Shown piece after piece: positions 19,881 through 41,669 of a stretch of 57,410 nucleotides of DNA. The position numbers and the translations under genes were made by a program. The notes under the pieces were generated by a model. That model did no database searches. It was not told where the DNA came from and saw nothing but the letters and a program-made list of their open reading frames with translations. This stretch comes from Thermoproteota archaeon (lineage in GTDB: Archaea; Thermoproteota; Methanomethylicia; Methanomethylicales; Methanomethylicaceae), in the NCBI GenBank assembly GCA_029887795.1, contig JARXPE010000006.1, positions 1 through 57,410 of the forward strand, given 5' to 3'. How positions within the stretch are numbered: the first letter of the stretch is position 1; each line of letters starts with the position of its first letter.

Positions 19881-19894
19881 GTGGGATGATTCAA

Positions 19895-21449: not shown

Positions 21450-22670
21450 TCATAGTGGCAAGATCTCGCCGTTGTAAAGCGCGCTTACGTACTTTCCTGA
21501 GAATGTAACGAACCCCATTTTAACAAGATCATTCAGCACCTTTTTTTCTCCGAGCTCTTTAAGCGTGCTCTTTCTGGAAATTTTTTCTATAACTTCTTTG
21601 TACTTTCTATCGAGACAGATCTTGCCTTCAGTCAGCATTCTTATGACGTTCCCACAGATGTTGTAGGTCCTGTCCTTTATACCATCTATTAAAGCTCCTG
21701 CCCTCCAAGGATCAATTTCCATGAGGTCCAAGCCTATGATTTTTTTGGTGTTTCTTTGCAGGGTCCATAACGCCTTATAAATATCCGCCTCCTTGAGACC
21801 CTCTATGTCTGTGAATTTCGCTCCCATAAGCGCCGATCTAGAGCCGATGTCTAAATCAACCGATACATACACGCTGCGACTCATTGATTTTTGAGATATA
21901 AACACATTGGTAGCCTCGTCAATACCAAAAGAGTCTATTATCCCTCTATGAACAATTTTCACACCCTCTTTCTCCAGGCCCTTGTAGACTTGAACAAATT
22001 CTCTAACACGAATGTCTTGAATTCTCTCCATTTTTTCAGTTGGATAATCCAAAGGACCGAAGACTAAGATGTTCTCAGCATCTATTATCCCTTCGTTAAT
22101 TAAGTGGTAGATGAAAGATCCTCCATTGTAGCTATTTTTCCTACCCGTGGAACTGAATACATAATCCGAGGGCTTGTAACCAAACCTCTCATAATCCGGT
22201 CTAGTTTCCATCATATATCCGATCAATCCGTTTCTTATTGGCGAGGGGATGCCGTCAAAATGGGAGTCAAATACAATTAGGTAGATGTCTTCATATTTCT
22301 CCATCAGCGACTCAATCACACCGCCTGTAAGGCTATGGTCCCCTCCTATCATTAGCGTCCTCTCTAAATCTTTGGCATAATCCCTTACCCTATCTTTGTA
22401 CTCCCTACATCCGTCAGAATCCAAGAAGGTTCCATAATTGGTAGTATTGAGCAAAACAAGGTCGTCCTCAACTGGATATATTGAGAGCCAACTTTCAATT
22501 GGAACCTCTCCACAATCTTTGATATTGAGCCCTTTCACCTCTTCCGAGCCTAAGACCGCCCTATACGGGTTGACCGGTCTTGTACCTTTAATCAAATCAT
22601 TTATCTTTTTTTGTATAGAGTCTGCTCCTTCATCAGGATCGAATAGGACGCCGAATGCAGACCACGACAT
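21450..22670 (-). CDS. Divergent arginase-superfamily (ureohydrolase) protein
   Basis: The 406-residue protein is longer than the usual ureohydrolase (about 300). It keeps all metal-binding motifs: GGDHS (about residue 114), FDSHFD (about 134) and SVDLDIG (about 271), with LDLMEIDP near the end of the core. The substrate-loop signatures of agmatinase are missing and SVDLDIGSRSA replaces the usual SxDxDxxDP. An extra C-terminal region of about 70 residues, from KICLDRKYKEV, ends in a small winged-helix-like KMGFVTFSGKYVSALYNGEI. It is probably a metal-dependent C-N hydrolase of unknown substrate. It is divergent from the AOR gene. Confidence 0.7.
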   Translation of the reverse strand: MSWSAFGVLFDPDEGADSIQKKINDLIKGTRPVNPYRAVLGSEEVKGLNIKDCGEVPIESWLSIYPVEDDLVLLNTTNYGTFLDSDGCREYKDRVRDYAKDLERTLMIGGDHSLTGGVIESLMEKYEDIYLIVFDSHFDGIPSPIRNGLIGYMMETRPDYERFGYKPSDYVFSSTGRKNSYNGGSFIYHLINEGIIDAENILVFGPLDYPTEKMERIQDIRVREFVQVYKGLEKEGVKIVHRGIIDSFGIDEATNVFISQKSMSRSVYVSVDLDIGSRSALMGAKFTDIEGLKEADIYKALWTLQRNTKKIIGLDLMEIDPWRAGALIDGIKDRTYNICGNVIRMLTEGKICLDRKYKEVIEKISRKSTLKELGEKKVLNDLVKMGFVTFSGKYVSALYNGEILPL

Positions 22671-22779: not shown

Positions 22780-24645
22780 ATGCAAGGGGCATATATGGGA
22801 AAAATACTCAGAGTGAACCTCACAGACAAAAAAGTCTCAGAGTCCCCGCTGCCCGAAGAATATGTAAGGAAATACATCGGAGGACGCGGCATTGCTGCGA
22901 GGCTTCTATATGATGTGATGAGTCCTGGGACGGACCCCCTCTCTCCAGATAGCAAGATGGTCTGGGGCACAGGACCCCTTACTGGTCTTCCAGTTCAGGC
23001 ATGTTCTAGCGGATGGGTTGTGACGGCTAAATCTCCTGCCACAGGCACATATTTCAGATCTAGGTGTGTCAGCAACCTTGGGATCATGTTAAAGCGCTCT
23101 GGTTACGATTTCTTGATAATTGAGGGCAAAGCTGAAAGTCCCACATATGTATATATCGATAACGGGGAGGTGGAATTCGGGGACGCCTCTTCCTTATGGG
23201 GCACAACCACAGACCTCGCTGAATATCTTCTTAAGAACCACTTGATAAGAAATCCGCGCGTTGAGACTGCGGTCATTGGACCTGCGGGCGAGCGGCTTGT
23301 AAAGTATGCGATTATTCAGTGCGGCACAAGGCAGCTTGGTAGGGGAGGAATGGGTGCCATAATGGGTTCGAAGAACCTCAAGGCTTTAGCAGTATACGGA
23401 GATAAGCCGATACCAATAGCAGATGAGGAGCTCCTCAAGGAGCTGGTTAGGGAGCAAATCGCACAGCTCTCCGCAGCTCATGGTGCCAAGAGGATGCAAA
23501 GATACGGCACTGCTGCGATACACACACTCATAAACCAGATAGGTGACTATCCATACAAGAACTTCTGGGGCACCTACTTCCCTGAGCATGAAAAACTAGA
23601 TGGCGAGGGAAGGGTAAAAAGAACCATAAGGAATGCTGGTTGCCCGAACTGCCTCATAAACTGCTGGAAGATCACCTACGTAAGGGAGGGTCCATACGCA
23701 GGAGCATGGGTCGATGGTCCTGAGTATGAAACCTTCTGCACATTCGGCGGTCTACTGGATATCTCAAACTTGGATGCCACAATAGCAGCGAATCAGCTTG
23801 CCGATCTCTACGGGATAGACACGATCTCTGCGGGCGTTGCCATTGCCTTTGCAATAGAAGCATTCGAGAGGGGCATTATAACAACCAAAGACACGGACGG
23901 AATGGTACTAAAATGGCGGGACGAAGAAGTTATGATGAAGCTCATCAAGAAGATCGCGTTCAGGGAGGGCTTCGGAGATCTCCTGGCGGAGGGGGTGAAG
24001 ATCGCGTCGGAGAGAATTGGGAAGGGTTCTGAAGAGTTTGCTATACACATAAAGGGTCTTGAGCTTCCGGCCTACGATCCCCGTCCAGTAAAGGCGCATG
24101 GTCTGGGAATGGTGACCTCAAACATAGGTGGCAGTCATGCTTTGAGCTACGGAACTCAAGAAGTCTTCGGACTGCCTACCGCTGTGGATCGGTTCGCCGT
24201 GGAGGGAAAGGGCAAATTAACAAAGTTCAATCAGGATCGCCTCACATGGGGCGAGTGCTGCATTTGGTGCACATTCCCGACAAGGACAGAATGGCATAAG
24301 CCCGATCTCCTGACAAAGATAGTCGCGGCTGCCACAGGAATCGATTTCGGAGGGTTTGACTCTGCCCTCAAGATAGGAGAACGCGTCTGGAACGTCGAGA
24401 AGGCCTTTAATGTCAGGGAAGGCTTCGATAGGCGGCACGACACCCTGCCAGCTCGCTTCCTCAAGGAGCCCATACCCGAGGGGCCATCAAAGGGACAGAA
24501 GTTTGAGCTAGAACCCATGCTTGATGAATACTACCAGGCAAGAGGATGGGACGTTGCAACAGGTCTGCCCACAAGGAATAAACTAGAGGAGCTAGGACTC
24601 AAGGATATTGCTGACGACTTAGAAAAAATGGGAAGACTGCGTTAA
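22780..24645 (+). CDS. aor: Aldehyde:ferredoxin oxidoreductase (tungsten enzyme)
   Basis: The 621-residue protein matches the AOR family, which oxidises aldehydes to acids with ferredoxin as acceptor. It has the N-terminal GKILRVNLT and YIGGRGIAARLLYD, and a pterin-binding RGGMGAIMGSKNLKA. The [4Fe-4S] cysteines are C288, C291, C295 and the distal cysteine in GECCIWC (493/494/497). A MoaD/ThiS-like gene follows 11 bases later. The closest of the five tungsten subfamilies (AOR, FOR, GAPOR, WOR4, WOR5) cannot be told by eye. Confidence 0.92.
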   Translation: MQGAYMGKILRVNLTDKKVSESPLPEEYVRKYIGGRGIAARLLYDVMSPGTDPLSPDSKMVWGTGPLTGLPVQACSSGWVVTAKSPATGTYFRSRCVSNLGIMLKRSGYDFLIIEGKAESPTYVYIDNGEVEFGDASSLWGTTTDLAEYLLKNHLIRNPRVETAVIGPAGERLVKYAIIQCGTRQLGRGGMGAIMGSKNLKALAVYGDKPIPIADEELLKELVREQIAQLSAAHGAKRMQRYGTAAIHTLINQIGDYPYKNFWGTYFPEHEKLDGEGRVKRTIRNAGCPNCLINCWKITYVREGPYAGAWVDGPEYETFCTFGGLLDISNLDATIAANQLADLYGIDTISAGVAIAFAIEAFERGIITTKDTDGMVLKWRDEEVMMKLIKKIAFREGFGDLLAEGVKIASERIGKGSEEFAIHIKGLELPAYDPRPVKAHGLGMVTSNIGGSHALSYGTQEVFGLPTAVDRFAVEGKGKLTKFNQDRLTWGECCIWCTFPTRTEWHKPDLLTKIVAAATGIDFGGFDSALKIGERVWNVEKAFNVREGFDRRHDTLPARFLKEPIPEGPSKGQKFELEPMLDEYYQARGWDVATGLPTRNKLEELGLKDIADDLEKMGRLR

Positions 24646-24655: not shown

Positions 24656-24931
24656 ATGGGAAAAGTGACCGTAAAGTTCTACCAGGATGTTAGAGACGCC
24701 GCGGGAGTACCTTCGGTGGAGGTTGAAACCGAAGGACCCACTCCACTCACACTTTTTTTGAACAATCTAGCTGAGCGGTTCGAAAAACTCAAGCCAATGT
24801 TGGCAAATCTTCAGACAGAGAGGGCGGCTGTAATAGTGCTCGTCAATGGTCGAGCTCCAATACCTCCTTCTTCGGCAGTTCTGGTTGGGGGGGAGGAAAT
24901 AAGCATATTGCCAATGGTCGAGGGCGGGTAG
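24656..24931 (+). CDS. MoaD/ThiS-family ubiquitin-like sulfur carrier
   Basis: The 91-residue beta-grasp protein ends in the double glycine needed for adenylation and thiocarboxylation (MVEGG). VKFYQDVRDAAG and a VLVNGR strand fit MoaD. It directly follows the AOR gene, so it most likely supplies dithiolene sulfur for the tungstopterin cofactor of that enzyme. A ThiS or protein-modifier role is possible. Confidence 0.88.
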   Translation: MGKVTVKFYQDVRDAAGVPSVEVETEGPTPLTLFLNNLAERFEKLKPMLANLQTERAAVIVLVNGRAPIPPSSAVLVGGEEISILPMVEGG

Positions 24932-25047: not shown

Positions 25048-26094
25048 ATGTCTCAAAGAGAGGAGATGAGCTCCTACGATCGTCTGATGGCTGCCTTTGA
25101 GCTCAAAAAACCAGACAGAGTCCCAGTTACCCCATTCGTGAGGGAATGGTGCGTTCGTCAAGCAGGTTTTAAGTTCTCTGAGGTCATGACAAACGCTGAG
25201 AAATACGTGTACTCGCAACTCTATTCGATAAGAAAGTTCGGCTACGACATGGTATTAGACCTGCTTGCTGTACACGCAGAGTCTGAGGCTATGGGGAGCG
25301 TACTAAAGATACCCGTGGACGCCCCTCCCTCTGTGGACGTTCCTGCTGTAAATGACTACTCAAAGGATCTGCCTAAGCTTAGGATACCTCATCCGAGAAA
25401 GGACGGTCGCCTACCGTTGATACTGAAAGGCATCTCCCGAATGAAGGAGGCTGTTGGCGGATTAATACCCGTAATGGGCTACGTCCAGGCGTGCTGGAGG
25501 CACACGTGTATGATGCGTGGCACGGAGAGGGCATTGCTTGACATGAAGAAGAATCCTGATCAGCTTAAAGAACTGATCGACATCGCCACCGAGAGCCTCA
25601 TAGTTTATGCGGAAGCCGTTGTTGAAGCTGGCGCAGATCTAATATGGGTCTCGGACCCCACCTCGTCAGGAGACATGATCTCAAAAAAGGCATTTGAAGA
25701 GTTTGTCTTCCCATACCTGAGAAGACAAATACGCGCAATAAAAAGAATGGGCGCGAAGGTGTTTCTGCACATCTGCGGAAACGTGAACGACCGGCTAGAA
25801 GTTATGGCTAACACAGGCGCAGATGCAATAAGTGTGGATGAGAAGGTAGATCTCGCAAGGGCAAAATCACTCATTGGGAATAGGGTCTGCATAATGGGAA
25901 ACATAAGCCCAGGGGTCACACTACTACAAAAGACTCCGAAAGATGTTGAGGAAGAGTGCAAGGTGGCTCTGGAGAAGGCAATGGCTGGTGGTGGGTTCGT
26001 GCTGGCCTCCGGGTGTATAGTCCCTGCGGCGGTGCCCCCGGAGAATATCTTAGCCATGGTGGAATCAGTCAAAAAATATGGTGTTTACCAGTAG
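25048..26094 (+). CDS. UroD-fold corrinoid methyltransferase (MtvB/MtoB- or MtaA-like)
   Basis: The 348-residue protein belongs to the uroporphyrinogen-decarboxylase superfamily used by corrinoid methyltransferases. The zinc site of the methyltransferase branch is present: H241 and C243 in LHICGN, and C323 in LASGCIVP. True UroD decarboxylases lack this H-x-C...C set. A gene for a corrinoid protein starts 12 bases after the stop. In acetogens and Archaeoglobus, this pairing can demethylate methoxylated aromatics; in methanogens related proteins move methyl groups to coenzyme M. Its sequence is less MtaA/MtbA-like than the second copy at 33.3 kb, so I lean to a substrate:corrinoid role. Donor unknown. 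Confidence 0.82.
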   Translation: MSQREEMSSYDRLMAAFELKKPDRVPVTPFVREWCVRQAGFKFSEVMTNAEKYVYSQLYSIRKFGYDMVLDLLAVHAESEAMGSVLKIPVDAPPSVDVPAVNDYSKDLPKLRIPHPRKDGRLPLILKGISRMKEAVGGLIPVMGYVQACWRHTCMMRGTERALLDMKKNPDQLKELIDIATESLIVYAEAVVEAGADLIWVSDPTSSGDMISKKAFEEFVFPYLRRQIRAIKRMGAKVFLHICGNVNDRLEVMANTGADAISVDEKVDLARAKSLIGNRVCIMGNISPGVTLLQKTPKDVEEECKVALEKAMAGGGFVLASGCIVPAAVPPENILAMVESVKKYGVYQ

Positions 26095-26105
26095 GGGGTG
26101 GTTGT

Positions 26106-26756
26106 ATGGGTGTGGATAAAGAGGAAGTTTTCAAGAATCTTGCAAAGTGTGTGGTTGACGGAGACGAGGAAGGAGCCAAAAGGTGGGCCGAGGAAGCCGT
26201 CAAGAATAACATAGACGCATACGAAGCCATAATGAAGGGACTTGCCGAGGGCATGAGGGTCGTGAGCGAGCTCTACGAGAAGGGCGAGTACTACGTCCCG
26301 GAAGTGCTGCTCTCTGCTAGCGCCATGAACATGGCGGTCGAGATCCTGAAGCCACACATAAAGGTGGACAAGACCTCGAAGCCTATAACAGTCGTTCTGG
26401 GAGTGGTCGAGGGCGACATACACGACATCGGCAAGAACCTAGTCAAGATAATGCTGGACAGTGCCGGGTTCAAAGTAATTGACTTGGGCAAGGACGTCCC
26501 ACTCTCAGAGTTCGTAAAGGCTGCCAAGGAGCACGGGGCCGAGGTAATCGGAATGTCTGCCCTTATGACAACCACTATGCCTGGCATGAAGAAGGTTGTG
26601 GATCTCCTCGTCAGCGAGGGGTATCGGGACAGGGTGAAGATCATGATAGGCGGGGCTCCAACCACAATGGACTACGCGAAGTCCATAGGTGCGGACAGCT
26701 GGGGTAAGGATGCATCGGAGGCGGTTGGGATAGTTAGGAGCCTGACCGCCAAATAG
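26106..26756 (+). CDS. Methyl-accepting corrinoid protein (MtaC/MtbC/MttC family)
   Basis: The 216-residue protein has the N-terminal four-helix methyltransferase cap (EALxxG-type helices, YYVPEVLLSASAMN) and a C-terminal Rossmann-like cobalamin domain. The cobalt-ligand motif is D104-x-H106-x-x-G109 (EGDIHDIGKN), followed by MSALMTTTMPGM and GGAPTT. It carries the methyl group between the methyltransferases. The ATG lies 12 bases after the upstream methyltransferase stop and is preceded by a G-rich AGGGGGTGG site. Confidence 0.93.
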   Translation: MGVDKEEVFKNLAKCVVDGDEEGAKRWAEEAVKNNIDAYEAIMKGLAEGMRVVSELYEKGEYYVPEVLLSASAMNMAVEILKPHIKVDKTSKPITVVLGVVEGDIHDIGKNLVKIMLDSAGFKVIDLGKDVPLSEFVKAAKEHGAEVIGMSALMTTTMPGMKKVVDLLVSEGYRDRVKIMIGGAPTTMDYAKSIGADSWGKDASEAVGIVRSLTAK

Positions 26757-26792
26757 CCTTTTTTTGGAGGATGGCTTATACCTAAAGTATTT

Positions 26793-27455
26793 GTGGACTC
26801 TATATCCAAGCGTTATGAGGTTGCTGGAAAGGAAGTCTTGGCTCTGGATTCTCTGACTATTGATTTTCCTGAGAAAGGGATCGTGGTTATAGCTGGTCCT
26901 TCCGGTGCTGGGAAGACCACACTGATCCGTATCATATCTGGACTTGAGAGTCCGACATCGGGCTCGGTTTTCATAGATGGTGTAGAGATCTCCCGTCTGG
27001 GTGCCTACGAGCTTGCTTGGTTTAGGAGGAAGAAAATAGGCTTCAAGCCACAGGATCCTGTATTAATACCCCAATTGACCATCTTGGAAAATGTCGCCCT
27101 GCCACTACTCTTCAATTTCGTGGAGAGGGATAAAGCAATAAAATCTGCAAAAGAACTTTTGGATGAGGTCGGTCTCTCTAATAGAATAAATCACAAACCT
27201 GGTCAACTAAGTGGTGGGGAGTATGAGCGTGTAAGTTTTGCCCAAACAATTATAGGCTCGCCGCCAATTGTTATACTGGACGAACCGACAGCACATCTTG
27301 ACTTGGAGAATTCAAAAATAATAGCCAAAATTATAAAGAAAAAGCAAAAGGAGACTCAGTCACTTTACATAGTCACCACTCTCGAGCAGTCGCTGATCGA
27401 GGACGCAGATATGATAGTCAACCTGATGAACGGACGAGTAATCAAAATTGATTGA
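26793..27455 (+). CDS. ABC transporter ATP-binding protein, LolD/MacB type
   Basis: The 220-residue ATPase has Walker A GPSGAGKTT, Q-loop GFKPQD, signature LSGGEYERV, Walker B VILDEP and an H-loop replaced by TTLEQS, so the usual switch histidine appears to be missing. The coordinates use the first standard codon (GTG), but the first beta strand of the fold (PKVFVDSI) continues upstream, and a good GGAGG sits seven bases before an in-frame ATA at 26,778. The true start may therefore be the ATA. A FtsX-like membrane protein on the other strand at 28.4-29.3 kb is the only visible permease candidate. Confidence 0.82.
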   Translation: MDSISKRYEVAGKEVLALDSLTIDFPEKGIVVIAGPSGAGKTTLIRIISGLESPTSGSVFIDGVEISRLGAYELAWFRRKKIGFKPQDPVLIPQLTILENVALPLLFNFVERDKAIKSAKELLDEVGLSNRINHKPGQLSGGEYERVSFAQTIIGSPPIVILDEPTAHLDLENSKIIAKIIKKKQKETQSLYIVTTLEQSLIEDADMIVNLMNGRVIKID

Positions 27456-27558
27456 GCTCATTAAAATCATAAAAAAGTCGACAAAGCCAAAACCAAAATT
27501 AAAACTTCGAAAACGCATAAATTTTCTTCAAATAGATATAATGTAGGGTGTTCTCCTC

Positions 27559-28296
27559 TTGGAAAACATTTTTGACAATACTGAGGAAATCCTTTCCCTT
27601 GCAAGGTCATCCGGTGCCGCCGTCGCTGGCATTGCGGATCTTTCTTTGCTTTATGATCTTCCAACATTTGGCGGCGTTCTGTTAAACGAATTCAAATATG
27701 CAATATCTGTAGTAGTCCCACTTCCCAATATAGCAGTGGAAAGAATAAGCCTTGAGGATCCTGGCATACTCTACGCCCATGCATACCATTCCGCAAACGC
27801 GTTAATCGACTCTATTACCCTAAAATTGTCTGCTAGGATCATGGAGAAGGGGTTCTCTAGTCTTGTCATTCCCGCCTCACTTAGGGTGGATCCCTCGAAA
27901 GAGTTAGGTCATGCCTCTCACAAAGCCTTTGCATGTGCTGCTGGACTTGGGTGGATCGGTCGAAACGGTCTGCTTGTGAACCCATTATATGGTCCTCGAG
28001 TACGTTTGGGAACTGTACTCACAGATATGCCCCTAAAACCTGGCAAGCCCTTGAATAACCAGTGTGGTAAATGCAGGCTATGCGTTGACTCGTGCCCCTC
28101 AGGCGCACTAAAGTATTCAGAATTTGAGTCGCACCCCCGATATCGGGAAGAGATCTTTGATCACCAGAAATGTGCAGCCAGATTGAACAAGTTCAAAGAG
28201 AAGTTCTCCCAAAAGCCCTTCCAAGCGGCATATGCCGCACCCATCTGTGGTATATGTATCAAGGTGTGTCCGATAGGAAGGCCTCGATCCAATTAA
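27559..28296 (+). CDS. QueG-like double [4Fe-4S] cluster protein
   Basis: The 245-residue protein resembles the epoxyqueuosine reductase / reductive-dehalogenase-like family. It has a central HKAFACAAGLGWIGRNGLLVNPLYGPRVRLGTVLTD-type core (about 121-157), then a ferredoxin module with C169, C172, C175, C179 and a second CGICxxxCP set (C230, C233, C237, perhaps with C205). It is about 100 residues shorter than tRNA-modifying QueG, so the family's tRNA role is doubtful. The family can bind cobalamin, and the gene lies just after a corrinoid protein; a role in reductively keeping the corrinoid active is an inference. TTG start after GGGTG. Confidence 0.75.
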   Translation: MENIFDNTEEILSLARSSGAAVAGIADLSLLYDLPTFGGVLLNEFKYAISVVVPLPNIAVERISLEDPGILYAHAYHSANALIDSITLKLSARIMEKGFSSLVIPASLRVDPSKELGHASHKAFACAAGLGWIGRNGLLVNPLYGPRVRLGTVLTDMPLKPGKPLNNQCGKCRLCVDSCPSGALKYSEFESHPRYREEIFDHQKCAARLNKFKEKFSQKPFQAAYAAPICGICIKVCPIGRPRSN

Positions 28297-28297
28297 T

Positions 28298-28319
28298 AAA
28301 TCCACTATGAAGTGGATTT
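28298..28319. terminator. Hairpin between convergent genes
   Basis: A perfect 8-bp stem (AAATCCAC with GTGGATTT) and a six-base loop begin two bases after the QueG-like stop and before the convergent FtsX-like gene. It could act as a bidirectional terminator or stabilise the 3' end. Confidence 0.5.
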
Positions 28320-28383
28320 CTTGTTGCGAACTCAAAGTAAAAAATTGAAACATAATTTTTCATTTTTTGAATGAACTCACCAA

Positions 28384-29307
28384 TCATCTGCGATATTCTG
28401 CTCCTCTGAGCTTCCCTTTGTAAACCTTATACTCTATTAGGAGTTGTCGCAAAAGGGTTTGGAAGCTCAGAGATACGGCCGATCTCTTCCTTTGTTTCCC
28501 ATCCCCGCTTTCCCAACTATCTATGACCGGGTTTCTGCCCTCTGCTATTTTTAACTTTAACCTGACTAATGGTAAGGTCTCGTCATTTTTAAGGGCTTCA
28601 TCTGGGTTTACGCCTAGTGTTGCTAGTAGGGCAAAAGTCTCCCTTCCAAAATCTCCAAGATACCTGCAAACAAGTTCTAGTTCCCCATCATATGCTGAGC
28701 AAGTCACTATTGTTATGTCTTGGCGCTCCTTTAACCTCTCTTTAATGAACTCTTTAACATCTTCCAATTCGGATGGCAATAATACTACTGGAACCTCCTT
28801 TTCTGTCAAAGGCTTAAATGCTTCTCTTCCGAGAAGGCTCACGCGCATACACCTCAAGGAGGAATACACCGGAGAGAGAATCCCCAAACCGGTTGCTATT
28901 ACAAAAGAATAAAATAACATCACATTCTTTATGGTTGATAATGGCCATACCAACGAAGCAAAAACGCCAATTAAATATCCAATAAGCGAAATGATCCACA
29001 CCCTGTATATTCCAAGTTTAAATATATCTGATGGTGAAACTCCCAGATTTATCAGAACCATAAGCTCATCCATGCTGTCGTACTCTAATGCAAACGACAT
29101 CGTTATCGCCAAAAAGAATGTTAGCAACATGATAAATGCAAGCGAAAGCCCGCTGACAGCCACTTCTACGAATATGAATGTGTAAGTTACTACTGCGACG
29201 CTTAAAACCATGCAAAGTGTTAGCGGTATCCTTTGGGTTATTTTACCAAAGGCTATTCTGAGTATCGTGGCGGACTTCGGGTCCAAAACCTCATCGATAA
29301 GGATCAT
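28384..29307 (-). CDS. FtsX-like ABC permease subunit (probable)
   Basis: The 307-residue protein has four hydrophobic helices (about 28-48, 52-75, 100-125, 128-150) and a cytosolic C-terminal domain of about 120 residues. Between helices 2 and 3 is YDSMDELMVLINLGVSPSDIFKL, which matches the coupling segment of FtsX/LolC permeases. SLRCMRVSLLGREAF after helix 4 also fits. It lacks the large extracytoplasmic domain of MacB or LolC. Its start codon directly follows the stop of the upstream membrane gene (TAGATG), so the two are translationally coupled. The ABC ATPase on the opposite strand could be its partner. Confidence 0.6.
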   Translation of the reverse strand: MILIDEVLDPKSATILRIAFGKITQRIPLTLCMVLSVAVVTYTFIFVEVAVSGLSLAFIMLLTFFLAITMSFALEYDSMDELMVLINLGVSPSDIFKLGIYRVWIISLIGYLIGVFASLVWPLSTIKNVMLFYSFVIATGLGILSPVYSSLRCMRVSLLGREAFKPLTEKEVPVVLLPSELEDVKEFIKERLKERQDITIVTCSAYDGELELVCRYLGDFGRETFALLATLGVNPDEALKNDETLPLVRLKLKIAEGRNPVIDSWESGDGKQRKRSAVSLSFQTLLRQLLIEYKVYKGKLRGAEYRR

Positions 29308-30372
29308 CTATTTTACCTCTTTCAGAAACCTCCGCATGCTGATCCATCCAATAAGTATTAAAAAAGCACTAAAGTAAAAAATTAATTGGTATGCGCCCAT
29401 CGCCCAAATTAAAACGGCGAGTAAGGGTCCAAAGATTGACAGAAAATTCGAGACCAATATAAATGACTTCTCATCAAATTTTTTTATTGTCCTGTTGGCG
29501 ACCACCAAAAAGGAGTTGCAGTAACTCAGGTCTACAATTGCCAAGAACCACAGCACTAGGAAGATAAATAAGTTATCCACAAGCCCCATAATAAGAAAAA
29601 CAAAAAATATTGACAACACGGTGATTGTTCCAATGCTTCTGTATATCACGCTCTGCTTGCGTAACCTCCACCCGATTAATTGAATTGCTATAAGAGATGA
29701 CGCGATTATCGCCCCTACTTGAACCACATCAGCTTCCAAGGCAGTTACAGCTATTATTGGTATCAAAACCGTTCCCATGGTGCCTCCAAGACTGATTCCA
29801 AGTGCCAGCAACCATCCATCCAAGGAGAGAGATAATTTGCTCCCCTCCGCCATTTTTGGTTTAGGGACAATTATCTTCAAGGAGAACAACAATAAAATAG
29901 AAGATATAAATGCCAACATACCGGACACGACAAGTACAGAATCCGCGCCATAAAATTCCATCAAAATGGTTCCAAAAAGAGGAAATGCCGATAGAACAGA
30001 TGCTGTCAGGCAATTCATTACCTTGGAGGATGGCAGTGAGAGGAGCCCTCCTGTGGTCGCCCCTACCAGTAGCGAAAAAATTGGCGCCAAGTAGCCATAG
30101 CCATAGGCTCCGAAGAGCAACGTAGTAATCACATGGGCTGCCATGAAAGTGCCTGCTGTTCTTGATATTGTTGCCTTTGACCAAAGACCATATTGCGTCC
30201 CAAGCGTAAACCCCAAATAATACGATGTTAGGGCAAAGGCCACTATGAGCAAGTCCTGATTCTTGAACCACGTGATCAATGGTATTAAATAGTGGACAAT
30301 TATGGCTGACGGAAATGCCATGGCTATAGTTATCTTAAACAATGAAAAATAGTCTATAATAATCCTCCCCAA
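29308..30372 (-). CDS. Polytopic membrane protein, MFS-like
   Basis: The 354-residue protein has about 11 hydrophobic helices arranged as two halves around a basic central loop (KIIVPKPKMAEGSKLSLS). This resembles a major facilitator superfamily transporter. The canonical motif A (GxxxDRxGRR) is not evident; the corresponding loop reads YGLWSKATISRT. It heads a two-gene unit with the FtsX-like protein and diverges from the small winged-helix gene. Substrate unknown. Confidence 0.6.
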   Translation of the reverse strand: MGRIIIDYFSLFKITIAMAFPSAIIVHYLIPLITWFKNQDLLIVAFALTSYYLGFTLGTQYGLWSKATISRTAGTFMAAHVITTLLFGAYGYGYLAPIFSLLVGATTGGLLSLPSSKVMNCLTASVLSAFPLFGTILMEFYGADSVLVVSGMLAFISSILLLFSLKIIVPKPKMAEGSKLSLSLDGWLLALGISLGGTMGTVLIPIIAVTALEADVVQVGAIIASSLIAIQLIGWRLRKQSVIYRSIGTITVLSIFFVFLIMGLVDNLFIFLVLWFLAIVDLSYCNSFLVVANRTIKKFDEKSFILVSNFLSIFGPLLAVLIWAMGAYQLIFYFSAFLILIGWISMRRFLKEVK

Positions 30373-30424
30373 ACTAAAAATTTTTTATATTCTCTGCCAA
30401 TATATAGTTATTCGGGTTTTCATA

Positions 30425-30751
30425 ATGGAGAAGAAAAAATTTACAGTTATGCAAGAACTAATAATTGAAGGAATACTGAAAAAAGTTGGGGATGAGAGCA
30501 AGATAGAAACCGTTGAGATTGGAAGCGGCGACGTTCTTGGATACGTCTCCAGCGAAATGACGAAGAGGAAGGACAGTGGCATAAAGGGTACTGCTGCAGG
30601 CACGAAGGGATGGGCTGACATGTTCAGGTTGGCAGTCAAGGATCTAGTAGCGATGGGTTATTTGAGGGAGAAGAAGGGTCTAATAACATCAAAACTAACG
30701 CTGACTAAGGCTGGATTGGAGGCCTACAAGGAGTACAAGAAACAAACATAA
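30425..30751 (+). CDS. Small winged-helix-like protein
   Basis: The 108-residue, basic, soluble protein begins MEKKKFTVMQELIIEGILKKVGD and ends DLVAMGYLREKKGLITSKLTLTKAGLEAYKEYKK, a helix-turn-wing pattern seen in PadR/MarR-like and other archaeal winged-helix proteins. The middle holds a lysine- and glycine-rich loop (KRKDSGIKGTAAGTKG). It may be a DNA-binding regulator. The next gene, eight bases on, is a membrane protease. Confidence 0.55.
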   Translation: MEKKKFTVMQELIIEGILKKVGDESKIETVEIGSGDVLGYVSSEMTKRKDSGIKGTAAGTKGWADMFRLAVKDLVAMGYLREKKGLITSKLTLTKAGLEAYKEYKKQT

Positions 30752-30758
30752 TCGGAAA

Positions 30759-31397
30759 GTGAGCGTTCTGTTCGCAGAGGCAATAGTGAAAATCTGCAGA
30801 TCAAACAAAAAAACCTTCAAGAGCTACGAGCTTGTTGTCAGTGGTCTAGGCGTATTATCGGTTCCATTTGTTCTGGCATGCATAACTCTGTTCTTTGCCT
30901 TTGGATCTCTTCCATTTTTACTCATACCTTCTCTGAATGATCCATCAGCCTTCATATTTTTAATCGCTTCTATTATTTTAGGTCTTACTTTGCATGAGTT
31001 TTCTCACATAGTGGTTCTTGCAAACTGGGGAGTAAAGGATATCTCAATTGGAATTTCAATATCGGGTATTTGGGGCGGATTCGTTAGGGCTGACATAAAT
31101 AAGGAAACCTATTCCAAGATCCAATTGCCATTTTATTCAAGCGGTCTGGGATCCAATTTATTGCTATTTTTACTTTTTCTTCCGTTCGTTAATTTCAGCC
31201 CATATTTGCATATCATATCAATAGCCAACTTTTGGCTTTTGATTATTAATGCGATTCCTGCTCCTCTGCTGGACGGCGGTAAAATCTTTGAGGCAACATT
31301 TAGGTACATGAATTTAGAAAAGTACATGGAAGCGATCTCCATAGGGATTTTGCTGCTCTGGTTTATAATTATAATTTTAAGGTTTTTAATTTCATGA
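30759..31397 (+). CDS. Site-2 protease-like membrane metalloprotease (M50)
   Basis: The 212-residue membrane protein carries the zinc motif HEFSH (H79, E80, H83) in a hydrophobic helix and the third-ligand motif NAIPAPLLDGG (D172) in a later helix, as in M50 intramembrane proteases. No PDZ or CBS domain is present. It has about five or six helices and ends in a hydrophobic segment. The GTG start lies eight bases after the winged-helix gene, so regulated cleavage affecting a transcription factor is an attractive but unproven idea. Confidence 0.8.
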   Translation: MSVLFAEAIVKICRSNKKTFKSYELVVSGLGVLSVPFVLACITLFFAFGSLPFLLIPSLNDPSAFIFLIASIILGLTLHEFSHIVVLANWGVKDISIGISISGIWGGFVRADINKETYSKIQLPFYSSGLGSNLLLFLLFLPFVNFSPYLHIISIANFWLLIINAIPAPLLDGGKIFEATFRYMNLEKYMEAISIGILLLWFIIIILRFLIS

Positions 31398-31540
31398 TTT
31401 TTATTAAGCGTTTTGCTAAGAATAAAATAATATCTTATATCACAATTATATATTCCGTTTATATTGACACTCAAAACATAAACTTTTTCAAAAATATTAT
31501 ATAGTGTAACATAAATATTGTTAATACTGGAGTAAAACAG
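31398..31540. promoter_or_regulatory. AT-rich intergenic region upstream of cstA
   Basis: This strongly AT-rich stretch includes aaatattatatag near 31,493-31,505, a plausible TATA region about 50-60 bases before the cstA ATG. No hairpin or repeat was seen. Confidence 0.3.
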
Positions 31541-31552
31541 GTGAAAGATCCT

Positions 31553-33229
31553 ATGGAAATGACTACCGCCTACTTAGTGATTATAGCCATCGCATTCTAC
31601 CTTTTCGGCATCTTTGTTGTCTCTAAGCGTCTTGAGAAGGCATACTTCACTCCAGATCCCAATAGAAAGACTCCTGCATGCGCCTTTAGGGACGACTTCG
31701 ACTTTTATCCCGCAAATCCGATCTCTCTGTTTGGTGATCATTGGGCGGCGACGGCGGGAGGCGCGCCGCTGTCTGGGGGTGTGGCTATTGCCCAGTGGGG
31801 TTGGGCATCGGGCATTTTGTATGTATTGCCAGTCAACATATTCTTGGGCTCGGTCCATGACTACGCCACAGGTTTCGTGATGATGCGTGAGCGTGGACAG
31901 ACCGCCAGCGAAGTTTCCTACAGATGGATAACTCCCCTTTCGGGAATCTTATTCACCTTCATTGGGTATATAGCTATAGTCAGCTTCTGCGCAGCCTTTG
32001 TCAGGCTGGTTGTAGCTGGGACCACCTCTACACCGGCCCTCTTCGTCCCAGTCCTTTTACTCGCTGTGATAGGCCCGCCCTTCGGGTACCTCCTTTACAG
32101 GAAGGGTTGGCCGATTTGGCTGGTGGGCGTTATCCAGTACATTATATTCCTAGTCGCGATTTATGTGGGTCTTATGTATCCTTATAAGATGTCCGCTGAG
32201 GCATGGTATGTATTCCTTGCAATTGTTGGAATATTGGCGGCATGTCTGCCCAACTGGCTGTATTCTGAACCTTCAAACTTCATGATGTTCTTATACATGG
32301 CTACAGGGGTCGTCCTTCTGTTCCTCGGAGCGCTTGTTGGCAACTTCCCAATAACAGACTATCCTGCGCTACTCTTCTACGATAAGGCGCTCACACCTAG
32401 CGGATGGTTCTACCCTGGAATCACAATGATGGTGTCCTGCGGCGCTCTGACTGGCATGCACGTGTTCTGGATAGGTGCCTACACTTGCAAGCGCTTCCCT
32501 GAGGAGAGGTGGGTTAGAATTATTGGATACGGTGGAGAAGTCCTGGAGAGCGTGGGTCTCTGGACAGCGTTCCTAGCTATGCTTGTATTACCAGTCAGCA
32601 CTTACATCCCTGCATTGAAGGCAGGCTGGACTGCCGCATTTGGCATCGGATTCGCCAAGATCGTCGGCGCCATAATGCCTTTTGTAGATCCTACACTACT
32701 CAAAGTATTTGGCATGTGGATCGTAATGGTCTTCATAATGAGCACGTTCTACTCAGGTTTCAGAAACATGCGCGTCTTGGGGATTGAGTTTGTTCAGCTA
32801 GTCACAAAAAGAAAGATAACTAAGTACGTCTCTGCCTCCAGGTGGATTGCTGCAATAATTACCGCGATTCTAGTCATAGGTTTAGCTCTTAGCGGAGCCT
32901 ACCTGCAGATCTGGGCACTCTTCCCTATACTGTCAACATCATTGGCAGTCTTCTCCTTCATAATAGTTGGGGAATGGTGCAAACTGCATGACAAGAACCC
33001 GATATACTGGAGGATCGCAATGCTGGTCACACTCCTCGGGATATCGCTCCCTGCATCAATCTACGGCGCATGGTGGAACTACAGCGCTGGGGCAGTCGTT
33101 CCTGGAACTGTTTCGCTAATTGCTGCAATTGTGACCTTAATATATGTATTTGAGTGGGCAAGGCGAAGATGGAGGCGCGGCTACACACCTGAAGAGAAGG
33201 AGAAGTTCCTCAAGTTCGAGGAATTCTAA
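31553..33229 (+). CDS. cstA: CstA-family transporter (carbon starvation protein A)
   Basis: The 558-residue membrane protein has about 14-16 hydrophobic helices. RLEKAYFTPDPNRKTPACAFRDDFDFYPANPISLFGDHWAA and SVHDYATGFVMMRERGQT match the CstA family. Family members take up peptides or pyruvate in bacteria. In this archaeon the substrate is unknown; its position between two corrinoid methyltransferase genes makes a methylated or acid substrate conceivable. The ATG at 31,553 follows AGGTGA with suitable spacing; a GTG at 31,541 overlaps that site. Confidence 0.88.
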   Translation: MEMTTAYLVIIAIAFYLFGIFVVSKRLEKAYFTPDPNRKTPACAFRDDFDFYPANPISLFGDHWAATAGGAPLSGGVAIAQWGWASGILYVLPVNIFLGSVHDYATGFVMMRERGQTASEVSYRWITPLSGILFTFIGYIAIVSFCAAFVRLVVAGTTSTPALFVPVLLLAVIGPPFGYLLYRKGWPIWLVGVIQYIIFLVAIYVGLMYPYKMSAEAWYVFLAIVGILAACLPNWLYSEPSNFMMFLYMATGVVLLFLGALVGNFPITDYPALLFYDKALTPSGWFYPGITMMVSCGALTGMHVFWIGAYTCKRFPEERWVRIIGYGGEVLESVGLWTAFLAMLVLPVSTYIPALKAGWTAAFGIGFAKIVGAIMPFVDPTLLKVFGMWIVMVFIMSTFYSGFRNMRVLGIEFVQLVTKRKITKYVSASRWIAAIITAILVIGLALSGAYLQIWALFPILSTSLAVFSFIIVGEWCKLHDKNPIYWRIAMLVTLLGISLPASIYGAWWNYSAGAVVPGTVSLIAAIVTLIYVFEWARRRWRRGYTPEEKEKFLKFEEF

Positions 33230-33237
33230 AATACTCC

Positions 33238-33248
33238 TTTTTCTTTTT
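33238..33248 (+). terminator. T-rich tract after cstA
   Basis: Two runs of five T separated by one C follow the cstA stop by about ten bases, just before the ribosome binding site of the next gene. Partial readthrough is likely. Confidence 0.35.
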
Positions 33249-33263
33249 CCCTTGGTGATGAGT

Positions 33264-34256
33264 ATGACCCCCAAAGAAAGGACCTTCAGGATCTTAAACC
33301 ACGAAATTGTTGACCGCCCTTCAGTTCTTTCGGCGACCCAGACTGGAACCTGTGAACTTATGGAGGCATCTGGGGCTTATTGGCCAGATGCGAGCTTTGA
33401 CGCGGATCTCATGGCAAAATTGGCTTCTGCTGCCCATACCATAGCGGGTTTGGAGGGTGTTAGGATCCCGTTTTGCCTCACAGTTTTGGCCGAATCAATG
33501 GGGTGCATAATAGATCGGGGTAGGAGCGATCGCCAGCCAGCGGTAGCAAAGACACTCTACGATCAGGGCAAATCCCCAAACACGGAAAAGATATTGGAAA
33601 GTGCCAGGGTACAAACAATATTTGATGCCATACATAAAATCAAAGATATGAAGTTTGACGTGCCGCTTATCGTGGGTTTTGAAGGGCCCACAACATTGGC
33701 CGGTCACCTTCTGGGTGTCGAACGCCTCTGTTTGATGATGATAAAAAAACCGGATGAGGTTATGAAATACATAGAAGCCGCAGAGGAGGCCTGCGTCATC
33801 TATGCGAAGGCTTTGATAAGGGAAGGCGCAGATATAATTGCTCCAGCCGATCCCACAGCATCGCCATCGGTTTTGAGCCCTAGGATGTTCGAAAAGTTCT
33901 CCAAAAAGCCCTTGATGAGTGTTGCAAGTGTAGCAAAGATGTCCATCCTCCATATCTGCGGAAATGCGACGCCCATCCTGAACCACATGGCTGATTGCGG
34001 TTTCTCTGCCTTGAGCATAGAGGAGAAAGTCGACTTAACCACTGCAAAATCTCTCTTAAAAGAGCGGAGGGTCGCAATAGTCGGGAACGTGCCTTCTGCA
34101 GGGGTGCTTCTCACCGGGTCTGAGGAAGAAGTATTCAGGGTCTCAAAGCAGGCGATAGCTTCAGGGGTTGATATCTTGGCACCAAGTTGTGGGATAGCCC
34201 CGCGCACCCCCACTAGGAATCTAAGGGCTATGGTCAGGGCTGCCCTTTCTCCTTAG
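33264..34256 (+). CDS. MtaA/MtbA-like methylcobamide:thiol (CoM) methyltransferase
   Basis: The 330-residue UroD-fold protein has hallmarks of methylcobamide:coenzyme M methyltransferases: MTPKERTFRILNHE, ATQTGTCELMEASGAYWP, LAESMGC, and GPTTLAGHLLGVERL. The zinc ligands are H230 and C232 (LHICGN) and C309 (LAPSCGIAP). It would take the methyl group from the corrinoid protein and pass it to a thiol, CoM in methanogens. The ATG at 33,264 lies four bases after GGTGAT; an ATG at 33,258 overlaps it. The 3' end overlaps the convergent DUF169 gene by 23 bases. Confidence 0.85.
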   Translation: MTPKERTFRILNHEIVDRPSVLSATQTGTCELMEASGAYWPDASFDADLMAKLASAAHTIAGLEGVRIPFCLTVLAESMGCIIDRGRSDRQPAVAKTLYDQGKSPNTEKILESARVQTIFDAIHKIKDMKFDVPLIVGFEGPTTLAGHLLGVERLCLMMIKKPDEVMKYIEAAEEACVIYAKALIREGADIIAPADPTASPSVLSPRMFEKFSKKPLMSVASVAKMSILHICGNATPILNHMADCGFSALSIEEKVDLTTAKSLLKERRVAIVGNVPSAGVLLTGSEEEVFRVSKQAIASGVDILAPSCGIAPRTPTRNLRAMVRAALSP

Positions 34257-35010
34257 GCTTGACTTTCAACACTTCAGGCATTTCCAACTCGGCAATGGTA
34301 GCAGCTATTGGAATGGGATATCTAATGCCTGCGTTGTGCGTCTTCTCCAGCCCCTCAACAACTTTTTCTAAATATCTGAAAGGTATGACCATGGCTATTT
34401 CGTCGTCCGAAGTGTGGCCAAACCTTCTCTCGCCGTAGCAGGCGACAACCAACTGCGGCTTTTGAGTGTTGTACGCCTCGGCAATACCGTCGCCACAAAT
34501 CCCTATGTCGCCTATGGCGCCAAATGTGAGCCTTTCGCCTGTCGCATAGACCGCTCCATTTATCACTCTCATCATTTGAGCCCCGTTGCCGTATATGATC
34601 ACCAAGTCAGGCTCGATCTCTAGGCTTTCTAAAGGACCAACCACAAACCCTTCGTTCCTCTCTTTAATCTTGGGAACCGAGTCTGCAAACTTTTTTGCCA
34701 CACTTTTATCCGTTACATATCCAAGTTTTGCGAAAATCTCTCCACTTCGGAAGCTCTCATCAATTTCTCTTAACCCAAGAACCGAAGAACCGAGCACACA
34801 ATCGGCGTCTTCTGGGAATACCGTCCAAGTCCACCCATAGAGCCTCGCGGTATTTATGATCTGGCATATGGTGAGCCTCTTCCTTGGCCTCCTTAAGTTT
34901 TTTAACATACCCTCTGCCTCTGCTCTACTCTTGAAGAACCTTATCCCCACGACCCTGGACTTGGGTTTGATATACCTGTAGATCTTGTCTGCCGCCTCTT
35001 TCATCTCCAT
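34234..35010 (-). CDS. DUF169 family protein
   Basis: The 258-residue soluble protein matches the DUF169 pattern: VGIRFFKS, RRPRKRLTICQIINTARLYGWTW, DADCVLGSSVLGL, and AIGDIGICGDGIAEAYNTQKPQLVVACYGERRFG. Conserved cysteines fall in TICQ, DADCVLG, GICGDG and VACYG. The biochemical function of the family is unknown to me; members often sit near corrinoid methyltransferases, as here. Start ATG at 35,010 with GGAGGGG inside the end of ahcY; the ahcY stop lies two bases upstream. Confidence 0.8.
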   Translation of the reverse strand: MEMKEAADKIYRYIKPKSRVVGIRFFKSRAEAEGMLKNLRRPRKRLTICQIINTARLYGWTWTVFPEDADCVLGSSVLGLREIDESFRSGEIFAKLGYVTDKSVAKKFADSVPKIKERNEGFVVGPLESLEIEPDLVIIYGNGAQMMRVINGAVYATGERLTFGAIGDIGICGDGIAEAYNTQKPQLVVACYGERRFGHTSDDEIAMVIPFRYLEKVVEGLEKTHNAGIRYPIPIAATIAELEMPEVLKVKPKEKGQP

Positions 35011-35012
35011 CT

Positions 35013-36260
35013 CTATGTCCCCTCCCACCATCCTTTGATGTAACTTAATTGTTCCTCGGTCATGGTGTCTATTCTTATTCCCATCATTTGTAGTTTTAGC
35101 TTAGCAACAGTCTCGTCTATCTCTCTTGGAACATCGTAAACTGTTGCCTTCATATTCCCCGCATTCTTCAAGAGGTACTCCACAGAGAGTGCTTGATTTG
35201 CAAAGCTCATGTCCATCACCTCGCTGGGGTGTCCCTCTGCTGCGGCAAGATTCACGAGCCTTCCCTCAGCCAGCAGGTACAACTTTCTTCCATTCTTTAG
35301 CGAGTATTCTTCAACTGACTCCCTTATCTTTACCTTATCAACCTTTAACTCCTCTAATCCTTTCAAATCTATTTCAACATTAAAGTGTCCCGTATTGGCC
35401 AAGATCGCACCATCCTTCATAACCTCAAAGTGTTCTTTCTTTATGACATTTTTGTTCCCCGTGGCAGTAACAAATATGTCTCCTATTTTTGCAGCCTCGT
35501 CCATTGGCATAACATCGAATCCATCCATAACTGCCTTAAGGGCCTTTATTGGGTCGACCTCTGCGATTATGACACGTGCACCCATTCCCCTCGCCCTGTT
35601 TGCGAGTCCTTTGCCGCAGTGCCCGTATCCAGCAATAACAAATTTCTTACCTGCTAACAGAACATTTGTTGCCCTAAGAATTCCGTCGATTGTGCTCTGA
35701 CCCGTTCCATACACGTTGTCGAAATCCCACTTTGTCTCCGCGTTGTTCACAGCTATTATTGGATATTTTAAGACCCCGCGATCAGCCATGGCTCTAAGTC
35801 TCATAACCCCCGTCGTTGTCTCCTCTGTGCCCCCTATCACCTTGAAGTCCCACTTTCCTGAGTGTAGCTCTGTCACGAGGTCGGCCCCATCATCCATAGT
35901 TATGGCGGGTTTATGTTTAAGTACTAAGGTAATACATTTATAATATTCTTCTTTACTCTCACCTTTCCAAGCATAGACATTTATGCCATCGGCTGCCAAA
36001 GCTGCTGCGACCTCATCCTGCGTTGAAAGAGGGTTGGAGGCTGCGAGGGCGACACTGGCTCCTGCAGCTTTGAGAGTTCTCATCAATACACCCGTTTCCT
36101 TTGTCACATGTAGGCACGCACCGATCTTGATTCCATCAAGTGGCTTTTCAACAGAGAACCTCCTTTTGATTTCCATTAAAACGGGCATATGATCTTCTGC
36201 CCATTTTAGTAAACTCCTCCCCCTCTCTGCCAGTCCTATATCCTTCACCAAATAGTCCAT
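35013..36260 (-). CDS. ahcY: S-adenosylhomocysteine hydrolase
   Basis: The 415-residue enzyme splits S-adenosylhomocysteine into adenosine and homocysteine, clearing the product of SAM methyltransferases. Motifs are [54 protein letters not shown], the NAD-binding GYGHCGKG, and the C-terminal [11 protein letters not shown]. Length fits archaeal AhcY. The start is the ATG at 36,260, with a GTG nine bases upstream as alternative. Some archaeal homologues prefer S-inosylhomocysteine. It is transcribed with the DUF169 gene. Confidence 0.94.
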
Positions 36261-36380
36261 ACGGGGCACCTAACTACGTTAAATAATTCAGGGTATAAAA
36301 AGATGGATATAAGTGCACGAGGTCTACGATCACGCGAGACAATCCTCAAAAATAGGGTAAAGTGTGCTGCATATGGCATC

Positions 36381-39628: not shown

Positions 39629-39822
39629 CGCATACACCAACGGAATGAGTAAAAGAGGCGTGTACATTTAAAAATGTATTGCTTTACATATATCCAAAAA
39701 TTTCTAAAACTACCTCGAATGAGAGTGCTTTAGAACGGTTCATTCCATGACATTTAAGCATTAACCAGTAAATAAAAAAGTATATTAGCTTGATTTCGAT
39801 TTTCATCACGAGACGAGGATCC

Positions 39823-40851: not shown

Positions 40852-41669
40852 TGACTATGGAGTACAATCCATACCTTCCCCGACCTGCCAGCGTGAACGC
40901 GGTCCGGGAGGAGAGTCTTGAGACTAAAACCCTCAGACTTTCGCTGATCAACTGGAGGGCAACTTTTTTACCAGGGCAGTTCGTTCAGCTACTGCTGCCC
41001 GGTGTCGGAGAGGCTCCCTTTTGCATAACCTCGTCGCCAAGTGATCCCAAACATTTAGAATTGACAATAATGCGGCGAGGTTTAGTAACCACAGCCGCGC
41101 ACTACATGAGGCCTGGCGACGCTGTAGGGATAAGGGGTCCTTTTGGAAGACCGTTTCCAGTAGAGAGCTTTAAGGGAAAAGATTTGGTAATTGTTGCTAC
41201 GGGCATAGGCATAGCTGCACTTCGATCCCTGATACTCTATACTATAGAGAACAGAAATGATTTTGGGGACGTCACACTACTATATGGCGCAAGGTTTGTC
41301 GAAGACTTAGTTTACAGGGAAGAGTTGAAGAGCTGGGCCGAAAAGATAAAAGTCATAGTGACCCTCAGTAAGCCCTCAGAAAAATGGAAGGGACTTAAAG
41401 GCAGAGTAACGGATCATTTGGATACAATCAAACTAGGGGAAAACTCCTTGGCGGTGATATGCGGATCCCCCGCAGTCATGGTCAGCGTAGCAAAGACTCT
41501 GATTGAAAAAGGGCTTGAACAGAAAGACGTTTACCTGTCTATGGAGCGACACATGAAGTGCGGGATTGGCAAGTGTGCTAGGTGCATGATTCCTGGGGGC
41601 TTTATGGTCTGTAAGGATGGTCCTGTCTTCAGCGCTGGTGAGATAAACCTAGAGGATGTCGGTGAGTAA
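40848..41669 (+). CDS. hydG: Hydrogenase gamma subunit (FAD/NAD(P)-binding, 2Fe-2S)
   Basis: The 273-residue ferredoxin-NADP reductase-like protein has PGQFVQLLLPG and FCITSSP FAD-binding segments, a pyridine-nucleotide domain (VATGIGIAALRSLI, ICGSPAVM) and a C-terminal [2Fe-2S] set in MKCGIGKCARCMIPGGFMVCKDGP. It connects hydrogen oxidation or evolution to NAD(P). The ATG overlaps the hydB stop (ATGA). In sulfhydrogenases this subunit also supports sulfur or polysulfide reduction. Confidence 0.9.
   Translation: MMTMEYNPYLPRPASVNAVREESLETKTLRLSLINWRATFLPGQFVQLLLPGVGEAPFCITSSPSDPKHLELTIMRRGLVTTAAHYMRPGDAVGIRGPFGRPFPVESFKGKDLVIVATGIGIAALRSLILYTIENRNDFGDVTLLYGARFVEDLVYREELKSWAEKIKVIVTLSKPSEKWKGLKGRVTDHLDTIKLGENSLAVICGSPAVMVSVAKTLIEKGLEQKDVYLSMERHMKCGIGKCARCMIPGGFMVCKDGPVFSAGEINLEDVGE

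Follow-up and report, generated by a model that had tools for sequence, protein, structure and literature searches.

Where does a methane-making archaeon find its methyl groups when MtaB, the classical methanol partner of MtaA, is not detected in its genome? The question is raised by a locus on contig JARXPE010000006.1 of assembly GCA_029887795.1 (C35 in our numbering), whose 57,410 nucleotides make up the window analysed here. The source is a heat-loving member of the Methanomethylicia (Verstraetearchaeota), and its genome, G000, is 1.25 Mb in size and 92% complete. Canonical mcrA is present (McrA scores 223 bits with MCR_alpha), and the window encodes a genuine MtaA, the methylcobamide:coenzyme M (CoM) methyltransferase known as MT2. 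A search for MtaB (PF12176) found none in G000 and was positive in G004, G006, G010 and G014 and in the control. Keeping Mcr and MtaA without a detectable MtaB puts the natural methyl source of such genomes in question. The original prediction had seen a complete corrinoid methyl-transfer set here, directly downstream of an aldehyde:ferredoxin oxidoreductase (AOR) and a MoaD-like protein, and had wondered whether all of it served one pathway. Every part named in it is present by Pfam or profile match: the UroD-fold methyltransferase (UroD1), the corrinoid protein (CorP), the MtaA-like gene, transporters, a QueG-like protein and DUF169, with the AOR/MoaD unit immediately upstream of UroD1 (Table 1). 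The three-protein kit of UroD1, CorP and MtaA probably takes methyl groups off a compound for methane formation, and its gene neighbours suggest a combined pathway in which the compound is both demethylated and oxidised. The reading we favour, with a little better than even confidence, is that the three proteins form a corrinoid methyl-transfer chain and that the upstream oxidoreductases process the same compound.

What kind of protein is UroD1, our candidate for the substrate-side methyltransferase (MT1)? Its zinc ligands, HxC...C at H241, C243 and C323, are invariant across 12 sequences, and the best fold match of its predicted structure (predicted local distance difference test, pLDDT, 87.8) is MtaA (4ay7; template-modelling (TM) scores 0.87/0.89). 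Against subfamily models it reaches 212.6 bits with MtaA/CmuA (TIGR01463), below the cut-off of 235.4, and 97.7 bits with HemE (TIGR01464; cut-off 302.95). In a tree of UroD proteins that covered M. mazei MtaA, HemE, the UroDx proteins and bacterial UroDs of 416–446 residues, UroD1 forms its own clade with 100/100 support, outside both MtaA and HemE; the backbone of that tree is poorly resolved and we claim no sister group. The shared Pfam family might invite the idea of a uroporphyrinogen decarboxylase, but this is hardly credible for a protein that falls so far short of the HemE cut-off, sits apart from HemE in the tree, carries a zinc HxC...C motif and is separated from CorP by 8 bp. The relatives of UroD1 named in GTDB belong to the Methanomethylicia/Verstraetearchaeota (WYZ-LMO10, SKW203 and others; 84–97% identity), the exceptions being one bacterial fragment and distant homologues. 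Plasmid records yielded no close relative of UroD1 or MtaA, and in the record found for the Methanomethylicia culture M. petrocarbonis the best UroD1 homologue is only 39% identical.

Its two partners are more readily named. CorP carries the cobalamin motif DxHxxG as DIHDIG at residue 105, and its 215.8 bits with TIGR02370 (cut-off 215.3), set against 152.8 with MetH and 59.8 with methylaspartate mutase S, bear out its assignment as a methyltransferase-cognate corrinoid protein rather than a methionine synthase or a mutase. MtaA scores 367.1 bits with PRK06252 (cut-off 244) and 290.1 with TIGR01463 (cut-off 235.4); with the equivalog MtaA_Meth it reaches 384.1 against a cut-off of 400, and its G014 orthologue reaches 408.4. 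It nests with the MtaA of Methanosarcina mazei (support 99/93) inside a 100/98 clade and has its zinc ligands in an HxC at 229–231 and at C308. Its start, near 33267, was set by homology; the mechanical open reading frame begins at 33144. The protein at 33.3 kb, placed earlier as MtaA/MtbA-like, groups with MtaA, and UroD1 groups with neither MtaA nor HemE. UroD1 could instead be an extra MT2, a corrinoid:CoM methyltransferase whose real substrate-side enzyme is encoded elsewhere: it shares its zinc ligands and its fold with MtaA, and a second MtaA-like protein, with a CorP of its own, is encoded on contig C2 of G000. We think this improbable, since UroD1 lies outside the MtaA clade, a real MtaA occupies the same locus, and no other methyltransferase-type gene lies near the CorP orthologues, bar a separate UroD–CorP pair in G018 and G021.

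Could the arrangement be an accident of one genome? The content and order of the locus are kept in G003 (same genus) and in G009 and G012 (two other genera), with small rearrangements of transporter genes, and in G008 and G013 the order holds until the contigs end. With this conservation in five further genomes, the gene order is not chance. The three-component corrinoid set that had been predicted is thus found with all its parts together and its order conserved across three genera, and one RamA-type corrinoid activase (a RACo_C_ter protein, C23:65905-66678) is encoded in G000 outside the UroD1 locus. In the loci of genera g6 and g7, UroD1 is the most conserved protein (86–90% identity), followed by FADox1, CstA and AOR1; MtaA stands at 79% and CorP at 80–83%, and identities fall to about 45–60% for MoaD, the small membrane proteins and the arginase-like protein.

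The linked unit extends beyond the one first described, and a flavoprotein (FADox1) and an iron–sulfur protein (CCG1) upstream of AOR1 belong to it too. The best PDB matches of FADox1 are vanillyl-alcohol and eugenol oxidases, with lactate and glycolate enzymes scoring lower. A profile built from all FADox variants of the family matches p-cresol methylhydroxylase best, over its full length (191.7 bits), and the FADox1 model has vanillyl-alcohol dehydrogenase and p-cresol methylhydroxylase as its top folds (TM 0.78) at a pLDDT of just 65.7. CCG1 overlaps FADox1 by 1 bp and has two complete C-CC-CxxC motifs; its best NCBIfam match, TfrB at 181.9 bits, is under the cut-off, and its nearest proteins are TfrB and those of HdrB/D type. 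The closest solved structure to AOR1 is the AOR of P. furiosus (1aor, 438.7 bits). Orthologues of FADox1, Arg1 and AOR1 are confined to an identical set of eight genomes, G000, G001, G002, G003, G008, G009, G012 and G013. Arg1 is one of the arginase/agmatinase-family proteins that lie beside FADox–CCG pairs in most of the family's genomes; they accompany each of the two paralogous units (also at L092:8305-9354 and L060:11532-12575).

It was a second, diverged version of these genes that tied the two halves of the locus together. A five-gene cassette, AORx–MoaDx–FADoxx–CCGx–UroDx, is 29–38% identical to the set in the window and lies contiguously in G006 (L060:4312-10415), and its UroDx proteins form a separate clade of the tree (100/100). 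In G001, which is of the same genus as the window, UroDx, CCGx, FADoxx and MoaDx occupy the exact place of UroD1, and the CorP downstream is 92% identical. The AORx of G001 is found at the end of another contig, and a DDE transposase fragment lies between MoaDx and FADoxx (L042:17227-17613). In G011, pieces of the cassette are split over three contigs, at contig ends. Two things follow. Because the UroD is the exchangeable part and CorP and MtaA are fixed, UroD1 is likely to be the substrate-side methyltransferase. And because there are two diverged versions of the five-part set, with their UroDs at the same place beside one CorP, we take the link to AOR to be real. A bacterial relative of UroD1, from a deltaproteobacterial metagenome-assembled genome (MAG), is 60% identical over 128 residues up to the contig end, and its gene starts 107 bp after a three-subunit operon of the xanthine-dehydrogenase/4-hydroxybenzoyl-CoA-reductase (molybdenum hydroxylase) type (L070:76-3724). 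The xanthine-dehydrogenase type is an enzyme family distinct from AOR that likewise oxidises aldehydes or aromatic rings.

How would such a locus work in a methyl-reducing methanogen? The zinc site of UroD1 would bind a methylated compound, from which UroD1 would pass the methyl group to CorP in the Co(I) state; MtaA would move it from methyl-CorP to CoM; and methyl-CoM reductase would yield methane and the heterodisulfide of CoM and coenzyme B, CoM-S-S-CoB. The upstream block would act on the same compound or on its demethylated remainder, FADox1 oxidising an alcohol or hydroxy group, CCG1 delivering the electrons in the direction of the heterodisulfide, and AOR1, helped by MoaD1, turning the resulting aldehyde into an acid. 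That a single molecule donates its methyl group and undergoes oxidation from alcohol to aldehyde to acid is the simplest joint reading of the locus. The placing of UroD1 as MT1 rather than MT2, the route of the electrons and the type of substrate are inferred. The weakly favoured candidate is a compound with a methoxy group that is also an alcohol or aldehyde, for instance a benzyl alcohol or benzaldehyde bearing a methoxy group; N-methyl compounds, methylated thiols and methoxylated aliphatics are open candidates.

Several observations weigh against this picture. UroD1 falls under the MtaA/CmuA cut-off, so that no characterised relative fixes its substrate, and its zinc site is also that of the CoM-binding MT2 enzymes. 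In G011 the order is BCAT–UroD1–CorP with no FADox1–AOR1 block in between, in G018 and G021 UroD1–CorP has other genes upstream and no AOR1 block, and in G001 the AOR1 block is present and UroD1 is absent. The nearest relatives of AOR1 beyond the family, at 47–48% identity, include one in G032, a genome without a UroD1 match. The flavoprotein is no firmer guide: the resemblance to vanillyl-alcohol oxidase (VAO) is common to FADox2, the supposed partner in general heterodisulfide recycling, and in the alignment with eugenol oxidase the C-terminal Tyr-Arg pair that binds the phenolate in VAO is Ala-Arg in FADox1 and Tyr-Lys in FADoxx and FADox2, the alignment being weak there. We therefore rejected two stronger claims that we had considered, that AOR1 is an obligatory partner of UroD1 (the same four genomes speak against it) and that the VAO likeness of FADox1 proves an aromatic substrate. 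What had been offered as one pathway with AOR survives as a link that is real and strong but modular: the recurrence of the five-part set and the bacterial molybdenum hydroxylase neighbour speak for it, and an obligatory single pathway does not hold.

A different view of the same block is that AOR, FADox and CCG serve general redox metabolism, such as amino-acid-derived aldehydes and heterodisulfide recycling, and only adjoin the methyltransferase genes. UroD1 and the AOR1 block are apart in four genomes, nearly every genome of the family has at least one AOR, FADox is in all of them except G007 and G017 (59% complete), and a FADox2–CCG2–arginase unit is found in most. For the group as a whole, moreover, an HdrD–GlcD complex has been put forward as the general heterodisulfide reductase (PMC6783470). 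FADox1–CCG1 shares its layout of a flavoprotein and a double-CCG protein, but comes as an extra copy and, rather than standing alone, is linked to AOR and UroD1. We doubt this explanation, while granting it a real share of probability, because the five parts are together again in the diverged cassette, intact in G006 and in the locus swap of G001; because several other genomes also have an AOR next to CorP and MtmB-like genes; and because the bacterial relative of UroD1 follows directly behind a molybdenum hydroxylase operon.

The original prediction had suggested methoxylated aromatics as substrate, which would make UroD1 an O-demethylase of the Mto/Mtv/Odm kind. O-demethylases, some of them with zinc, are indeed found among the MT1 enzymes of the UroD superfamily (PMC13222342), FADox1 is similar to the oxidases of vanillyl alcohol and eugenol, and the bacterial neighbour resembles 4-hydroxybenzoyl-CoA reductase. 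Like UroD1 and CorP, the MtoABCD, MtvABC and Odm systems pair a UroD-superfamily substrate methyltransferase with a small corrinoid protein. But MtoB1 and MtoB2 are proteins of 47–48 kDa that act together with an MtrH-like MtoA and an activase borne on the operon (PMC8630106), and no MtrH-like MtoA or MtoD lies next to UroD1. UroD1 is shorter, nearer to MtaA and equipped with the MtaA zinc ligands, and it has redox enzymes linked to it; in the known systems an MtrH-like protein hands the methyl group on to a pterin, whereas here we propose its transfer to CoM through MtaA. In chloromethane metabolism too, CdmBCA couples a UroD-superfamily MT1 to a corrinoid protein, but CdmB has 429 residues, is free of zinc and works with a tetrahydrofolate methyltransferase (PMC13222342). 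UroD1 matches it with 58.8 bits over about 190 residues, roughly half the length of CdmB, against 142.3 bits for MtaA, and falls outside the clade of bacterial UroDs of 416–446 residues. By length and by closest match UroD1 is not of the MtoB/MtvB/CdmB type (about 420–450 residues), MtoB being set apart by description only. With the Ala of FADox1 at the aligned phenolate Tyr added, an aromatic O-demethylase of this kind is a possible but doubtful answer.

Another answer is that UroD1 and CorP are a two-component system like MtsA/MtsB, moving methyl groups from a methylated thiol or thioether to CoM, with MtaA a mere neighbour. In both cases a methanogen pairs a zinc-bearing protein of the UroD fold with a corrinoid protein of its own: UroD1 has the full MtaA-type zinc site, MtaA is its closest solved fold, and mtsA has been annotated in MAGs of Verstraetearchaeota (PMC6783470). 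MtaA, however, lies 7 kb off as a separate gene of the same block, which several genera conserve, the substrate-side UroD is swapped for another while CorP and MtaA stay, and a block of AOR, flavoprotein and CCG protein is attached. M. petrocarbonis, a methyl-reducing methanogen in culture, uses methanol and monomethylamine but not methanethiol, and methoxylated compounds are unmentioned among those tested (PMC12244365); this says little, as its relatives found here have no UroD1 orthologue. We regard the two-component explanation as rather unlikely.

If the chain runs through MtaA, how does it differ from the methanol system? In MtaABC, as proposed here, the methyl group travels on a corrinoid protein and ends up as methyl-CoM, and the MtaA of the window is a true member. 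MtaB is what was not found in G000; UroD1, with another fold, stands at the substrate side, and CorP prefers models of MtbC type over those of MtaC. Without MtaB in G000, MtaA lacks its classical methanol partner and is nevertheless kept beside UroD1–CorP. MtaB was found in none of the eight UroD1 genomes other than G018 and G021; incomplete assemblies could be an alternative cause, though the pattern is kept in all eight. BLAST finds MtaB in G018 and G021, so we rejected the idea of UroD1 as a stand-in mutually exclusive with MtaB. MttB had no match in G000, with positive controls. An MtmB-like protein is encoded there too, and UroD1 is therefore not necessarily the sole entry point for methyl groups. 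Elsewhere in the family, TAG-containing MtmB occurs in G015 and G017, and loci L117–L126 (for example L118:3620-9046) have a corrinoid protein followed by two tandem MtmB-like genes with no in-frame TAG and thus no pyrrolysine; in several genomes such TAG-free tandems lie near an AOR about 39% identical to AOR1.

The boldest form of the idea would be a self-contained, H2-independent methanogenesis in which a single methylated alcohol or aldehyde is the source of the methyl group and also pays for its reduction. The remainder would be oxidised by FADox1, with electrons passing through the HdrD-like CCG1 to the heterodisulfide, and by AOR1 with ferredoxin, and exchangeable cassettes would switch the methyl substrate around a fixed CorP and MtaA. 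We think it unlikely. A conserved, swappable substrate-side methyltransferase linked to alcohol and aldehyde oxidation does, all the same, provide named genes with which to test the methyl source and methane formation without external H2. Among the open-access papers found on AOR with UroD and a corrinoid protein, or on AOR in Methanomethylicia, no title or abstract describes the set; the joining of a methyl-transfer set with an exchangeable AOR–flavoprotein–CCG cassette is new, though absence from the literature searched is not proof.

Table 1. Genes of the methyl-transfer locus and its flanks, in window coordinates
Feature	Position	Strand	Assignment and remarks
FADox1	18315..19880	+	VAO/p-cresol-methylhydroxylase-like (GlcD-type) flavoprotein; FAD_binding_4
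CCG1	~19880..21202 (start approximate)	+	HdrD/TfrB-like iron-sulfur protein; Pfam CCG x2 + Fer4_8
Arg1	21450..22670	-	arginase/agmatinase-family protein; PF00491, 83 bits
AOR1	22780..24645	+	tungsten aldehyde:ferredoxin oxidoreductase; AFOR_N + AFOR_C; CxxCxxxC at 288-295
MoaD1	24656..24931	+	ThiS/MoaD sulfur carrier; PF02597; tail VEGG, C-terminal GG; 10 bp after AOR1
UroD1	25048..26094	+	UroD-fold zinc-motif methyltransferase, proposed MT1; Pfam URO-D, 268 bits; 348 aa
CorP	26103..26756	+	methyltransferase-cognate corrinoid protein; B12-binding + B12-binding_2; starts 8 bp after UroD1
ABC transporter ATPase	26793..27455	+	LolD/FtsE-like; ABC_tran
QueG-like ferredoxin	27559..28296	+	short two-cluster ferredoxin like the QueG/reductive-dehalogenase C-terminus; Fer4_16; QueG 70 and reductive dehalogenase 76 bits, both under cut-off
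Membrane proteins	28384-30372		between CorP and MtaA
CstA-family transporter	31541..33229	+	CstA, 200 bits; directly before MtaA; conserved synteny, 80-97% identity
MtaA	33267..34256	+	methylcobamide:CoM methyltransferase (MT2); subfamily models, tree, zinc ligands
DUF169 protein	34234..35031	-	PF02596, 192 bits
AhcY	35013..36269	-	adenosylhomocysteinase; TIGR00936, 641 bits; conserved neighbour

Of the genes around the three main players, the ABC transporter ATPase adjoins UroD1–CorP in every UroD1 locus of sufficient length, and the QueG-like ferredoxin is missing from the loci of G018 and G021. The DUF169 gene, just past the end that the original prediction had given to the set, also adjoins MtaA in G014, a genome without UroD1. 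AhcY is probably a housekeeping enzyme. Scans for Rfam families and for tRNAs found none in the window.

The family has further methyltransferase modules. In G021 (Methanosuratincola MAG-2), a divergent mcrA/B/G operon with its own UroD–corrinoid pair (L046:2793-8715) is directly divergent from UroD1–CorP; its mcrA product scores only 72 bits with MCR_alpha, and this may be an alkyl-CoM-reductase locus. G018 has a UroD–CorP pair similar to that of G021 (L047). In G000 itself, contig C9 carries another UroD–corrinoid pair with a CCG protein upstream (L056:6134-9105), a further uncharacterised methyltransferase module, and on contig C1 the gene of a corrinoid protein is followed by genes for proteins like the MetE C-terminus and like MtrH (L058:5861-8393). 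Finally, 5 kb past MtaA, positions 39790-43682 of the window hold a row of genes for an iron–sulfur protein, an FAD/NAD reductase, Oxidored_q6 and a NiFe-hydrogenase large subunit, a cluster resembling a soluble hydrogenase.

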